39,406 nucleotides of DNA from Candidatus Caenarcanales bacterium (GTDB lineage: Bacteria; Cyanobacteriota; Vampirovibrionia; LMEP-6097), in contig CANHDW010000008.1 of NCBI GenBank assembly GCA_947459525.1, forward strand, positions 1 to 39,406, in the 5' to 3' direction. Positions 16,811-37,964 of this stretch are shown here, in pieces. Position 1 is the stretch's first letter. Every line of letters begins with the position of its first letter. The position numbers and the translations under genes are program-made. The notes beneath the pieces were generated by a model. The model saw only the letters and a list, made by a program, of their open reading frames with translations, did not search any database and was not told the origin of the DNA.

Positions 16811-17326
16811 GTGATGGTCTTGAATGCGCTGAGCTCTACCAATACGGGAAATGATTTAGGCATTAGGGCTGGCCTTGGTAATTTAGCGGATAAATTAGTT
16901 ACCCCTAGTAATTCTAAAGTTAATGCTAAATCTGTTAATACTGAGTTAATTAACAATACCCAACAAGTGAATTTTGAAGGATTTATTGCTCATCAATTAA
17001 ATGCAGATAAATTAAAAAATTTAAAAACTGATGATTTTAGAAATCAGCTTGCTGACATTAAAAAATTAGGCGGGGCGGTAAAAAAATATTTCACACCAGG
17101 AGTTATGACTGATTATCTGACAGCTGTACATTCTTTTCTAACAGATATTAAGGATAAGGCTTATGAAGGGGAAAATTCGGAAGATGGTTTTTTTGAAAGA
17201 ATTAAAATCGTAGATGAAGAATTGGATCAAATAGCGAAAGATTATTTTAAAGATCAATCAGGCGAGCTAAAGGTTGCAGCATCTTTGGATTTAGTTGAGG
17301 GTATGCTGGTTGATTTGATAGCATAG
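16811..17326 (+). CDS. YaaR-like protein (DUF327), flagellum-associated family
   Basis: This 171-residue protein (GTG start, or ATG one codon later) has the DUF327/YaaR architecture. The first 50 residues are variable and disordered. A helical region follows (LADIKKLGGAVKKYFTPGVM... YLTAVHSFLTDI), and the conserved end is KIVDEELDQIAKDYF... LDLVEGMLVDLIA, in which the final G-M-L-V-D-L is the family signature. YaaR-type proteins are widespread in flagellated bacteria and often neighbour flagellar genes; their exact role is unknown. Only putA separates it from the flagellin gene. A GGGGGATA sequence precedes it, as it does the flagellin gene. Confidence 0.7.
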   Translation: MMVLNALSSTNTGNDLGIRAGLGNLADKLVTPSNSKVNAKSVNTELINNTQQVNFEGFIAHQLNADKLKNLKTDDFRNQLADIKKLGGAVKKYFTPGVMTDYLTAVHSFLTDIKDKAYEGENSEDGFFERIKIVDEELDQIAKDYFKDQSGELKVAASLDLVEGMLVDLIA

Positions 17327-20300: not shown

Positions 20301-22364
20301 ATGGGTATACCTAGTTCTGGTTCTAATCCTTTTTATTTAAGGGCTTCATCGGTAGAAGCTGCTTTTGAGGCTGTGAATAGTAATTTTTTTAATAGAAATA
20401 AAGACAAATTAGAAGGTGGAACGAAAGAGCAGTCCATTACTAGGACTATTGGTGCAGATTCTTATGCTTATAAAGCTCAAGGCATGGGTCATGTTAAAGA
20501 TGGATTGGCTGAATCTTTAAGTAAACTGCAAGATTCGAAGAGTAGTTTTGATCAAGTTAAATCTAATGTCGATCGAATTAAGAAAATAATAGGCGATGCT
20601 AGTAATGGTACTATCGTGGGTTCAGCTTTAGATGATGCTCAAGATGAAATTAATTCTTTAGTCGCTGAAATTAATGGCATAACCGCAAATGCTAAATACG
20701 GAGATAAACTTCTTTTTGATGGTAATTTCAAAGAATCTATGATGACGGGATTGAATCCGTCTAATAATTTAAAGCTTGATTTTACTCCTGGAACGGCTTC
20801 TAGGACGATTACTCCAGCCTTAGTTCAGACTTTTAATAATGTAGGTGGTGCAGCCTGGGATCAATATGAGGTTAAGTATGCGGATGATAAATATATAGTA
20901 GCTACTGCAAGATATAGAGAAGATCCAAATAATGCTTATATACAGAATGGTACGAATGTAGCTAACTCTACTGCTGATGGAGCTGTTTTTGTATATGATT
21001 CTCAGACTAGAGCACTTATAAAGCAAATTGATCCAGTGCGTAAAGATGTATTGAATCAACAGTTCGGTTCCTCGGTATCTGTGCAAGGAGATAAGTTAAT
21101 TGTAGGAGCGAATCCAGCACAGGTAAATGCTAATGTTCAAGACGATTTTTTCGGTGGAGAAGCTTATATGTTTGATTTAACTGACCTTAATAACCCTACT
21201 ACTGGTGGTTTATTAACTACATTTACGCATTCTGATATTAAGGGAGAGCAGTTTAATGGTGGTACTAGACCCTCTGGTTTTGGGAGCAGTGTGCAAATAC
21301 AAGGCGATAAAGTATTTGTTGTTGGTGGTTGGCATGATGATCCTGCTAATAATCGTACAGGTGCTATTTGGGAATTTAATCTTGATGGTAGTTTCGTGAA
21401 AAAGTACGACAATTTACCTAATACTTTTGGTTTTGGTGACACTCTTGGAACTTTTGAAGTTAATGATAATTACATAGTAGGGTCTCAGATTTATAAAAAT
21501 GATGGTAGTGGCAGGATGTTCGTTCTGGATAGAAATACTGGTGGCATGTCGTATATAGATCCGCCGAGTAGCTTCGCTGGACAGTTTTATGGTTCTGATT
21601 TTTCTGTTTTTGGAGATAAATTATTAGTAGGTGCTAGTGGTCTTGAGGGAGGCATGTTCTATGGTTTAGGTGGCACTGCTTATACAGGAAAAGCTTATCT
21701 ATATGATATTTCCACATCAAATTTCGGAACATTGCTGCACGAATTTAGTGGCGATGTGACTTTGAATGATCGTGATAGATTCGGTTCAACGGTTAAACTC
21801 ACTGGTGGCTATGTACTAGTAGGAGCTCACGGAGATGATACTGCGGGTACTAATACTGGTGCTACTTATCTTTTTGATGCTAACTCTTTTGATCTTGTGG
21901 CGAAGTCTACGGATTTTGCTGGATCAGATTTAGCTGGTCCAAAATTATTCGCTTCGGATCCAGCTTTTAATAGTTATATTGGTGTGGCTCGTGAATATGA
22001 TTTCCTTTCAAGTATTAAACCCTCTGGTACTTCTATTAATTTAAACACCGATACCGTACGTACGGGTTCCATGGGAAATGCTTCATTGGCTTCATTAGAT
22101 CAGTTATCGGTTTCTTTGACTAATGCTTCACTCGGCAATGTTACAGGACTTGTTAATAGCAACACTGTCTATAACATTAATACTATCGCCGACAATATGA
22201 CTAGAATGGAGGTTATTTTTAATTCAGCTCTTTCTAGGGTAGGGAATGAATATAAGAGAGCGGATCAATTGCAAAAAAAATATTTTGATGCTTCTAAGTT
22301 TATTGGGAATTTAGGCGTGCAGAGTAATGCAAATCCGAATACAGTTTCAAGTTTACTGCCATAG
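20301..22364 (+). CDS. Flagellin with an inserted beta-propeller domain
   Basis: This 687-residue protein has flagellin ends. Residues 45-145 form the N-terminal D0/D1 coiled region, including the family motif GDKLLFDG (135-142). Residues 585-687 form the C-terminal D1/D0 helices (NINTIADNMTRMEVIFNSAL... VGNEYKRADQLQKK). Between them, in place of D2/D3, about 400 residues form six or seven FG-GAP-like blades: FGSSVSVQGDKLIVGA (255-270), FGSSVQIQGDKVFVVGG (327-343), VNDNYIVGS (387-395), FSVFGDKLLVGAS (434-446) and FGSTVKLTGGYVLVGAH (494-510), each followed by a G-x-[AV]-x-[VL]-[FY]-[DE] strand. No export signal is expected, since flagellins leave through the flagellar type III system. A hook-associated FlgL-like role is possible. 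GGGGG four bases before the ATG may be the ribosome site. Confidence 0.78.
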   Translation: MGIPSSGSNPFYLRASSVEAAFEAVNSNFFNRNKDKLEGGTKEQSITRTIGADSYAYKAQGMGHVKDGLAESLSKLQDSKSSFDQVKSNVDRIKKIIGDASNGTIVGSALDDAQDEINSLVAEINGITANAKYGDKLLFDGNFKESMMTGLNPSNNLKLDFTPGTASRTITPALVQTFNNVGGAAWDQYEVKYADDKYIVATARYREDPNNAYIQNGTNVANSTADGAVFVYDSQTRALIKQIDPVRKDVLNQQFGSSVSVQGDKLIVGANPAQVNANVQDDFFGGEAYMFDLTDLNNPTTGGLLTTFTHSDIKGEQFNGGTRPSGFGSSVQIQGDKVFVVGGWHDDPANNRTGAIWEFNLDGSFVKKYDNLPNTFGFGDTLGTFEVNDNYIVGSQIYKNDGSGRMFVLDRNTGGMSYIDPPSSFAGQFYGSDFSVFGDKLLVGASGLEGGMFYGLGGTAYTGKAYLYDISTSNFGTLLHEFSGDVTLNDRDRFGSTVKLTGGYVLVGAHGDDTAGTNTGATYLFDANSFDLVAKSTDFAGSDLAGPKLFASDPAFNSYIGVAREYDFLSSIKPSGTSINLNTDTVRTGSMGNASLASLDQLSVSLTNASLGNVTGLVNSNTVYNINTIADNMTRMEVIFNSALSRVGNEYKRADQLQKKYFDASKFIGNLGVQSNANPNTVSSLLP

Positions 22365-31589: not shown

Positions 31590-32663
31590 TTATTTCACTA
31601 GTTCAGTAAGCTTGTAGTAAGTAGCCGGCCCTTTGCCTAGTCTTTTGATTAGATCTAACTGTATTAATTTTTGAAAATCTAAACTGCGAGTAGCTTTAGC
31701 CCTTTCTGTAAGTGAGCTATAAATTTTATCGGTGATAAAGCCATGTTTATTAATGTAATCGAGAATTTTTTTATCATGCTTTTCTAGAGTATTTTTAGGA
31801 TTTATGGATTCTTGTTTGATAAGAGGCTTTACCCTGAGTAGTTCGTCTATGATTCCACCACTGAAATATTCTAGCCATTCAGAGAAGTCTAATTTTTTAT
31901 ATAAATCATAATAATTTCCCCTAATACCTACTAGCTGAAAATATTGAGAGACGTTTTGGTTATAATAATTCTCAAAACTAAATAGGTGAAAGGTATTTAG
32001 ACCTAAGTTAGCAAGCAGATGTTTCGTTAAAAGGCGCGTGCAACGTCCATTTCCGTCTATGAAAGGATGGATTATTACGAACTGCTTATGGAAAAGACCA
32101 GCTAGTATCACTGGATCTAGGATATCTATATTTTTAGTAGTGAAATTTATAAGTTCGTTTACTAGCTTGGGTACATCATGGTGATCTGGCGGCCAGTAGA
32201 TGGTTTTACCTGTTTGAGGATTATTTACAAAAACAGGTTCCTTCCGTAATTTACCAAGCTTGGCTTTAGGTAATAGCTTGAGCATAACTATTTTCTGAAT
32301 GTCTAGAATTAGTTTTAAATTGATGGATGTTTTTTCTTTAGCGGAGGAGCTTATTCTAGGTATTTTACTGTAATTTTTTAAATAAATTAAAGCCTCATTA
32401 TAGTTTGTAATTTCTTGTTCGGTATCCCTGAGCTTATTTGGTTGATTTTTTAAAATTTTTTTGACGACAGTTAAAGGTAATGGATTCCCTTCTATTGCGG
32501 TAGAGGAGTGAGTAGATACCTGTCTAGCATTTTCTTCCAAGCTTAATAACACTAGGCGTGTGAGATTAGCATGGTTTAATTCATTAATTAATAGAGTTAT
32601 CTGTTTTATATTTTCTAATAATTTAGGACTAATAGAATATATTGGATTAAAGTCACTGGTCAT
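31590..32663 (-). CDS. Fic family protein (AMP-transferase type) with winged helix
   Basis: This 357-residue protein has the catalytic Fic motif [12 protein letters not shown] (residues 199-210), complete with the histidine that transfers AMP or a related nucleotide to target hydroxyls. An N-terminal inhibitory motif of the S-x3-E-G type is present (STAIEG, S54 to G59), so it belongs to the self-inhibited class with the helix before the core. The C-terminal region (about 290-355) looks like a winged helix ([20 protein letters not shown]). Such Fic proteins often bind their own promoter, and three 11-base repeats stand just upstream. Targets are unknown. Confidence 0.88.
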
Positions 32664-36560: not shown

Positions 36561-37964
36561 TTACACGCTTGGTATTAGTCTTTGAAAAATCTGAATATAG
36601 TAATCATCTTTGATGAAAACATAACGATTGTAAATTAAGCTTTTACCGCCTGGGCTCCAGTGTACGCCATTGATTGGCGCTTCTCTTTCACTGTATCTCT
36701 CGCCAATGCTAGTAGTACTACCATCTTGCACCTTAACCAAATATATCTGATTATTAGACACTACTGAAATGTATTTATCATCAGGGCTGAGATTGAATTG
36801 TGACTGAACTGAGTATTTAAAATCTGTTATTTGTTTAAGGGACTGAGTTGTGATTGTATTTTTAGTATTCTCAGCACTGCTCACTGAGTAGATTTGAACG
36901 ATACCATTATCATCTTTCATTAGAAAATAAATCAGGCTTCCATCTGCTGAACTGCGTAACCTGAAACGTGGTCCCTGAAGCCCAGGGTGTTTTCTATCTG
37001 TAGTAAAAGTAATTCTTCTTTGTGTGAATCCTCCTGGTACATTGGGTCTCGTACTTAAAGTTCCCTCTAGTGGCTTACCTGCAAGTGACTGCGTTATATC
37101 ATTTGGGATATCTGCTATAAAAACTTCTGTAACTAAAGTCCCATCTAGTGAGCGGATATTTCCTTGAAAGGCTATGGCTCGTGTCTGCTGTGAAGCATTA
37201 TGAACAGTGCTATCGTCTTTCGTGTAACCATTTTTACCCAGCCAGCACTCATCGAAAGCTCGCTCTATTTCATCGCTACCGAATTTAGGATTTTCTGTAA
37301 CTTGAGCTGTGATTACCGCAAAGTAAGTTCCTCTAAAATTTTCTGCGTTTTCACCCGCCTTATGATCCTCATGAATATTCTCTATCATCGTCATCACGCC
37401 GATAGTTCTCAAGTCTTTTCTTTCACTTAAAGTCTTTTTTTCTAAATATTCCATAAGATAATCGTTATAAGTAAAGCTAATCCATTTGCCATCAGCACTC
37501 CAAGTATGAGCATGGGTTCCACCTCTTAAAGCTCCTTTGGTAAGGGGTTCTTGAATATTCCTACCTTCGGCAGCAGTGCCATTGTGAGATGATTGCGGAA
37601 CTCCAATTTTTGCATTTTCGCGCGCCTCATGATTCCCTGAAATAATCGCCCCAAACCTTCTAGTGAAGCTATAAGGTTTTTCTTCATCACAATTTAAAAG
37701 ACCGTGAATGAAAATGATGCTGTCATTCACTGGATTCCAAGCTGCTGCCCCTACCCCTGGTCCATAAATACTTTGATTTTTAGTTTTATACAGCTCTACA
37801 ATTTCTTTAGTCGCAATGTTTAACTTACAGATACTCCCAGTGCGGCTTATATGAGTGTCATCGTTGCGGGTGTCGAAGACTAGCCACTTGCCGTCTGGGG
37901 AGAAGATTTGTGTGGCATTGAGAGTGTGACCGTGTTTCCCGTTTGTTAATTGTATTTCGTGCAT
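36561..37964 (-). CDS. DUF3748 (YidR-like) beta-propeller protein
   Basis: This 467-residue protein resembles E. coli YidR and the DUF3748 family, TolB-like WD propellers of unknown function. It opens with HEIQLTNGKHGHTLNATQIF and SPDGKWLVFDTR. It continues with blades marked by AAWNPVNDSIIFIHG, HTWSADGKWISFTYND, LRSSADGSLIYFLM, NLSPDDKYISVVSNNQIYLV and VHWSPGGKSLIYNRY. No signal peptide is visible, unlike TolB. It lies 16 bases downstream of the kinase-like gene in the same direction, so they may form an operon. Its 3' end converges on miaA with a 30-base gap. Confidence 0.82.
   Translation of the reverse strand: MHEIQLTNGKHGHTLNATQIFSPDGKWLVFDTRNDDTHISRTGSICKLNIATKEIVELYKTKNQSIYGPGVGAAAWNPVNDSIIFIHGLLNCDEEKPYSFTRRFGAIISGNHEARENAKIGVPQSSHNGTAAEGRNIQEPLTKGALRGGTHAHTWSADGKWISFTYNDYLMEYLEKKTLSERKDLRTIGVMTMIENIHEDHKAGENAENFRGTYFAVITAQVTENPKFGSDEIERAFDECWLGKNGYTKDDSTVHNASQQTRAIAFQGNIRSLDGTLVTEVFIADIPNDITQSLAGKPLEGTLSTRPNVPGGFTQRRITFTTDRKHPGLQGPRFRLRSSADGSLIYFLMKDDNGIVQIYSVSSAENTKNTITTQSLKQITDFKYSVQSQFNLSPDDKYISVVSNNQIYLVKVQDGSTTSIGERYSEREAPINGVHWSPGGKSLIYNRYVFIKDDYYIQIFQRLIPSV

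Follow-up and report, generated by a model that had tools for sequence, protein, structure and literature searches.

The window analysed here, a stretch of 39,406 nucleotides from a Candidatus Caenarcanales bacterium, encodes a 687-residue protein that is best read as a flagellin-derived fusion, in which the helical D1 domain is kept and a closed FG-GAP propeller of seven blades stands in for its hypervariable apex loop. We hold this reading, taken jointly with the export and flagellar decoration proposed below, with about even confidence. The open reading frame (20301-22364, forward strand) is intact and has the coordinates given in an initial annotation made from the DNA letters. In Pfam, the protein is matched by FG-GAP_2 over four stretches (E 3.5e-15; 56.3 bits against a curated cut-off of 23) and by Flagellin_N over residues 52-143 (E 6.5e-10, above cut-off), the latter match being partial (profile positions 47-138 of 139). 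An FDG motif lies at residues 139-141. The features are as follows.

20301..22364, +, propeller-bearing flagellin homologue, 687 aa (ATG behind a gggggataa Shine-Dalgarno-like stretch; Pfam; full-length homologues in two other assemblies)
20301..20450, +, N-terminal ~50 residues, occupying the D0-N position (of preserved length but lacking the flagellin signature; the canonical-flagellin profile begins only at residue 58)
20454..20729, +, N-terminal half of D1, with helices 43-101 and 108-130, hairpin and FDG (Flagellin_N; canonical profile E 9.3e-15; model helices)
20796..22034, +, insert at the D1 apex, residues 166-578, 413 aa (empty-site alignment with the canonical 305-309-aa flagellins of G001, G002 and G006)
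20817..20837, +, putative Velcro strand that closes the ring, residues 173-179, completing blade 7 as its fourth strand (DSSP of the model; strand order)
20865..21029, +, predicted blade 1, residues 189-243 (four model strands)
21057..21224, +, predicted blade 2, residues 253-308 (model; FG-GAP_2 match above cut-off)
21279..21407, +, predicted blade 3, residues 327-369 (model; FG-GAP_2 below cut-off, E 4.4e-4)
21453..21557, +, predicted blade 4, residues 385-419 (model; without its own Pfam match)
21582..21749, +, predicted blade 5, residues 428-483 (model; weak FG-GAP_2, E 0.24)
21780..21911, +, predicted blade 6, residues 494-537 (model; best FG-GAP repeat, FG-GAP_2 E 1.3e-9)
21921..22001, +, predicted blade 7, inner three strands, residues 541-567 (model)
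22056..22310, +, C-terminal half of D1, including long helix 620-670 (canonical flagellin C-profile over residues 586-652, E 9.5e-5; model helix)
22311..22361, +, C-terminal tail where D0-C would be (no recognisable D0 helix; alignments; Flagellin_C unmatched)
16811..17326, +, neighbouring DUF327 (YaaR-like) gene (DUF327 E 8.5e-13)

Flagellin ends and the inserted propeller

The flagellin parentage was assessed with profiles whose sole input was canonical flagellins from related genomes, D0 signature included, which avoids circularity. These match the window protein over residues 58-163 and 586-652, with the E-values listed above, and reach 1.7e-18 (N profile) and 3.3e-10 (C profile) in the related propeller proteins. 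Since the best E-values among about 200 shuffled copies were 0.05 and 1.1, respectively, both flagellin halves of the window protein exceed chance.

The part that is missing is D0. In nearly all family members, the match to the N-terminal profile starts at position 53 or later (only in G006f does it reach back to 26), and the match to the C-terminal profile ends before position 90. Residues 1-57 and 653-687 of the window protein have no match to the canonical profiles, except for a sub-threshold one on the last 14 residues, where the end of the tail (NPNTVSSLLP) resembles that of canonical flagellins (SPQLALSLIP). Flagellin_C has no match to the window open reading frame at E ≤ 10, and none in any member of the propeller family. 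The stretch that follows the C-terminal match is ~11-22 residues shorter than in canonical flagellins in most members, and longer in G006c. At the level of sequence, most members thus have no recognisable D0, the filament core, at either end; a structural equivalent of it may be present.

The position of the insert is defined by comparison with propeller-free flagellins of related genomes. When the joined flanks are aligned with the canonical flagellins of G001, G002 and G006, the insert falls between LDFTPGT and INLNTDTV, where canonical flagellins have few residues; the insertion point is thereby fixed, give or take a few residues, at the apex of D1. The 413 residues of the window insert compare with 387-495 in the four relatives that were measured.

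An AlphaFold model of the window protein, computed from an alignment of five sequences with the other DT_14 copies left out (pLDDT 65, pTM 0.56), has helices 43-101 and 108-130 and then a hairpin. Next come 28 strands, the first of them at 173-179, and after these a helix of 51 residues at 620-670. Grouped in fours, the 28 strands would form, with modest confidence, seven blades, the first strand closing the ring; the evidence for a closed ring and for the packing of D1 is the order of the strands together with the fold matches, rather than the model coordinates. A second member of the family gave a similar layout at lower confidence. When the model was compared with PDB folds, an integrin alpha-subunit came first (E 5.8e-10), and the best matches are mostly integrin alpha-subunits. 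The insert is therefore predicted, again with modest confidence, to be a closed seven-bladed, integrin-like propeller. In a PDB sequence search, the top entry was 3k8w, and the flagellin homologues 3k8v, 3k8w and 2zbi lead over the N-terminal half of D1 (E 5e-13); they resemble the window protein in that D1 sequence but have no propeller.

Most of what the initial annotation said of this architecture holds. The FDG motif, given as part of GDKLLFDG, is in place; the insert of about 400 residues, described as six or seven FG-GAP blades, has seven in the modest-confidence model; its assignment to the hypervariable position of flagellin is borne out by the empty-site alignment, and the proposed integrin-like nature by the fold matches. 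The terminal regions 45-145 and 585-687, which had been called D0/D1 ends, correspond to D1, but not to a recognisable D0. The structure prediction that had been put forward as a check returns the strands and the D1 helices, residues 1-48 being modelled at pLDDT < 50 with a possible helix at 16-38.

Distribution and genomic setting

The window assembly is fragmented (54.5% complete, 1.02 Mb). It encodes at least four canonical flagellins, one FlgL and FlhA, and the window protein is the only FG-GAP_2 protein found in it. Among 146 related genomes, full-length homologues occur only in LMEP_6097 (G001, same genus) and DT_14 (G006, same family). The architecture was not seen in G002, a genome of the same genus that is 93% complete, and its full form did not turn up again among 382 genomes from the class or 386 from the phylum. 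LMEP_6097 carries one such gene and Caenarcanales DT_14 six, all with D1 and FG-GAP repeats; DT_14 also has one possibly related gene without a Pfam match and one 192-residue, relict-like gene without a propeller. Scanning GTDB genome contigs with a single sequence gave no match; an alignment-based scan, with one genome per species, recovered both relatives. Those of its other matches that were checked look like ordinary FG-GAP proteins, aligned over the propeller part only. A search of plasmids gave separate FG-GAP and flagellin matches and no fusion.

In DT_14, two copies adjoin a canonical flagellin gene and point away from it; the genes flanking this flagellin were identified by eye, from their sequences, as HPF-, PdxA- and PanD-like. 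Further copies form a tandem group downstream of flhA (FHIPEP E 1.9e-227), and another is beside fliM and fliL. The window and LMEP_6097 copies are surrounded by housekeeping genes. A regular-expression search upstream of the family genes gave no match to a sigma-28-type promoter. In a D1 tree of 57 proteins, arbitrarily rooted and with FlgL left out, a single branch with support 100/98 sets the eight propeller proteins apart from the rest, and this clade adjoins the canonical flagellin of G001, G002 and G006. For the tandem pair d and e of DT_14, dN/dS across the propeller is about 0.2, at a nearly saturated dS.

Several further observations concern flagellin-like genes in these genomes. DT_14 has an unusually large flagellin gene set, with 32 Flagellin_C matches at E ≤ 10 spread over many contigs, some of them fragments. 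Downstream of its flhA, L043:4209-6734 encodes an 841-residue protein without a Pfam match, which has [ST]GR[EKA]-type repeats and whose last residues resemble a flagellin-like end, and L043:6788-7366 encodes a 192-residue protein resembling copies d and e minus their middle. Elsewhere in the class, Flagellin-N-like matches occur in open frames of 3249, 2238 and 1244 residues (G160:C28:23090-23458, G185:C16:37127-37405 and G333:C29:662-1150, respectively).

Relation to known flagellins and propellers

The sialidase domain is itself a propeller fold. A 2017 survey of 26,587 flagellins counts 61 types of insert domain, including metallopeptidases, vWFA, Peptidase_M26 and sialidase, the last in 10 flagellins; FG-GAP may or may not be among the 61 (PMC5595980). 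Foreign folds at the variable position of flagellin are thus not new in kind, and the window protein resembles flagellinolysin and other insert-bearing flagellins in having a foreign folded domain in place of the hypervariable region (PMC5595980). It differs from them in that its insert is an FG-GAP propeller, predicted to be seven-bladed, without known enzyme motifs, and in its unrecognisable D0. With the propellers of integrin alpha-subunits, it shares FG-GAP_2 repeats, the predicted seven blades and the top PDB fold match; unlike them, its propeller is embedded in a flagellin D1, and the protein lacks a Sec-type N-terminus. Our search of the literature for flagellins with FG-GAP or beta-propeller domains retrieved no relevant paper. 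The earlier view that the architecture is unusual stands: in the class and phylum samples it is confined to the window genome, LMEP_6097 and DT_14. A foreign insert as such is already documented by the survey (PMC5595980).

Another comparison is offered by flagellins of the same class (L083, L101 and L103) that, with ~600-640 residues and a repeat domain in the variable region, resemble the window protein; they differ in carrying GLUG repeats and nearly full-length Flagellin_N and Flagellin_C. GLUG flagellins of ~510-640 residues were noticed in another family of the class at L083:1468-3348, L101:1-1911 (-) and L103:109-1920 (-), with similar ones, by eye, at L085, L089 and L094. Their variable region also matches Peptidase_M26_N weakly.

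Proposed role and neighbouring genes

In flagellin, D0 is the filament core and is needed for canonical polymerisation, and D1 is the part that touches neighbouring subunits. We propose that the propeller flagellin is probably exported by the flagellar type III system, with no need of a signal peptide; its D1 contacts would put it in, or onto, the flagellum, where the propeller would face outward as an adhesin or ligand-capture module, and the main filament would be built by the canonical flagellins of the same genome. An outward binding role is suggested by FG-GAP propellers elsewhere, which are often binding modules, as in integrins, and by the N-termini of the propeller flagellins. In a crude hydropathy test, these are less hydrophobic than the N-termini of the six secreted-type FG-GAP proteins measured, which come from other bacteria; this is consistent with flagellar rather than Sec export. 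Overall, the best explanation is an adhesin or ligand-binding protein that leaves the cell by the flagellar route and decorates the flagellum through D1, and we give it roughly even chances. It is favoured by the matches to both D1 halves, the DT_14 copies next to flagellar genes, the presence of FlhA in the window genome and the low dN/dS of the tandem pair; against it, the window copy sits among housekeeping genes, where no neighbour is proven to be flagellar. Because D0 is degenerate, the protein is most likely a minor component, co-assembled or at a specialised position, rather than the main filament subunit.

The initial annotation had pictured a filament displaying thousands of propellers. 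This is unproven, and it is weakened because D0, which forms the filament core, is unrecognisable at either end; moreover, with at least four canonical flagellins encoded in the genome, a filament can be built without the propeller protein. A full filament subunit, polymerising alone or with canonical flagellin and carrying propellers along the filament, would require D0 to have diverged in sequence only. The near-canonical length ahead of D1, the possible helix at 16-38 and the flagellin-like last residues speak for it. We nevertheless consider it unlikely, as a D0 signature is absent from both ends of the window protein and of most relatives, no member has Flagellin_C, and the C-terminal D0 segment is shortened in most. 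Nor does an insert as such cost D0, since the GLUG-insert flagellins of the same class keep Flagellin_N and Flagellin_C nearly complete. Loss of a recognisable D0 would also suit a soluble or cell-surface protein, a secreted receptor or adhesin that uses flagellar type III export and never joins the flagellum, and the top PDB sequence match, 3k8w, is a solved flagellin homologue, a Sphingomonas protein reported as a cell-surface alginate-binding protein. Yet the conserved part is D1, which contacts neighbouring subunits, and the DT_14 copies cluster with flagellar structural genes; we regard this possibility as quite unlikely.

FlgL and flagellin have their N-terminal fold in common, and some HAP3 models weakly match two relatives (E 4.5e-5 and 1.4e-4), as might be expected of a hook-filament junction protein (FlgL/HAP3-like) with a propeller. 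Flagellin models outscore the HAP3 models, however; TIGR02550 does not match the window protein at E ≤ 10, while it finds the FlgL of the same genome at 5.8e-24, and the nearest flagellins on D1 are the canonical Caenarcanales ones, in the tree without FlgL. This makes a junction protein very improbable. The fragmented, incomplete assembly might have pointed to a chimera or a decaying pseudogene, which is ruled out by relatives of the same architecture: two other assemblies hold seven further genes without internal stops, the closest four relatives are 29-40% identical, and one tandem pair has the low dN/dS given above.

Returning to the D1-based decoration, we tentatively suggest, as a rather speculative extension, that the protein represents a flagellar component of a new class, namely a flagellin without the D0 core in which D1 alone docks an integrin-like receptor propeller on the flagellum; the expansion to six copies in DT_14 would then provide different binding specificities. 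If assembled in this way, the flagellum would be decorated with integrin-type propellers. It would be a natural scaffold for display, and non-photosynthetic cyanobacteria might use it as an organelle of attachment. Since D0 cannot be recognised, it is directly testable whether D1 contacts alone place a subunit on the flagellar filament.

As for the neighbouring genes, the nearby YaaR-like gene that had been described as flagellar is real, as the DUF327 match attests, but nothing we found marks it as flagellar, and the titles and abstracts listed for DUF327 yielded no flagellar link. The window further encodes a Fic/DOC domain protein at 31590-32663 (-; E 5.9e-16) and, at 36561-37964 (-), a DUF3748 protein with WD40-like propeller repeats (PD40 E 6.1e-8), a second propeller-type protein that is unrelated to flagellin.
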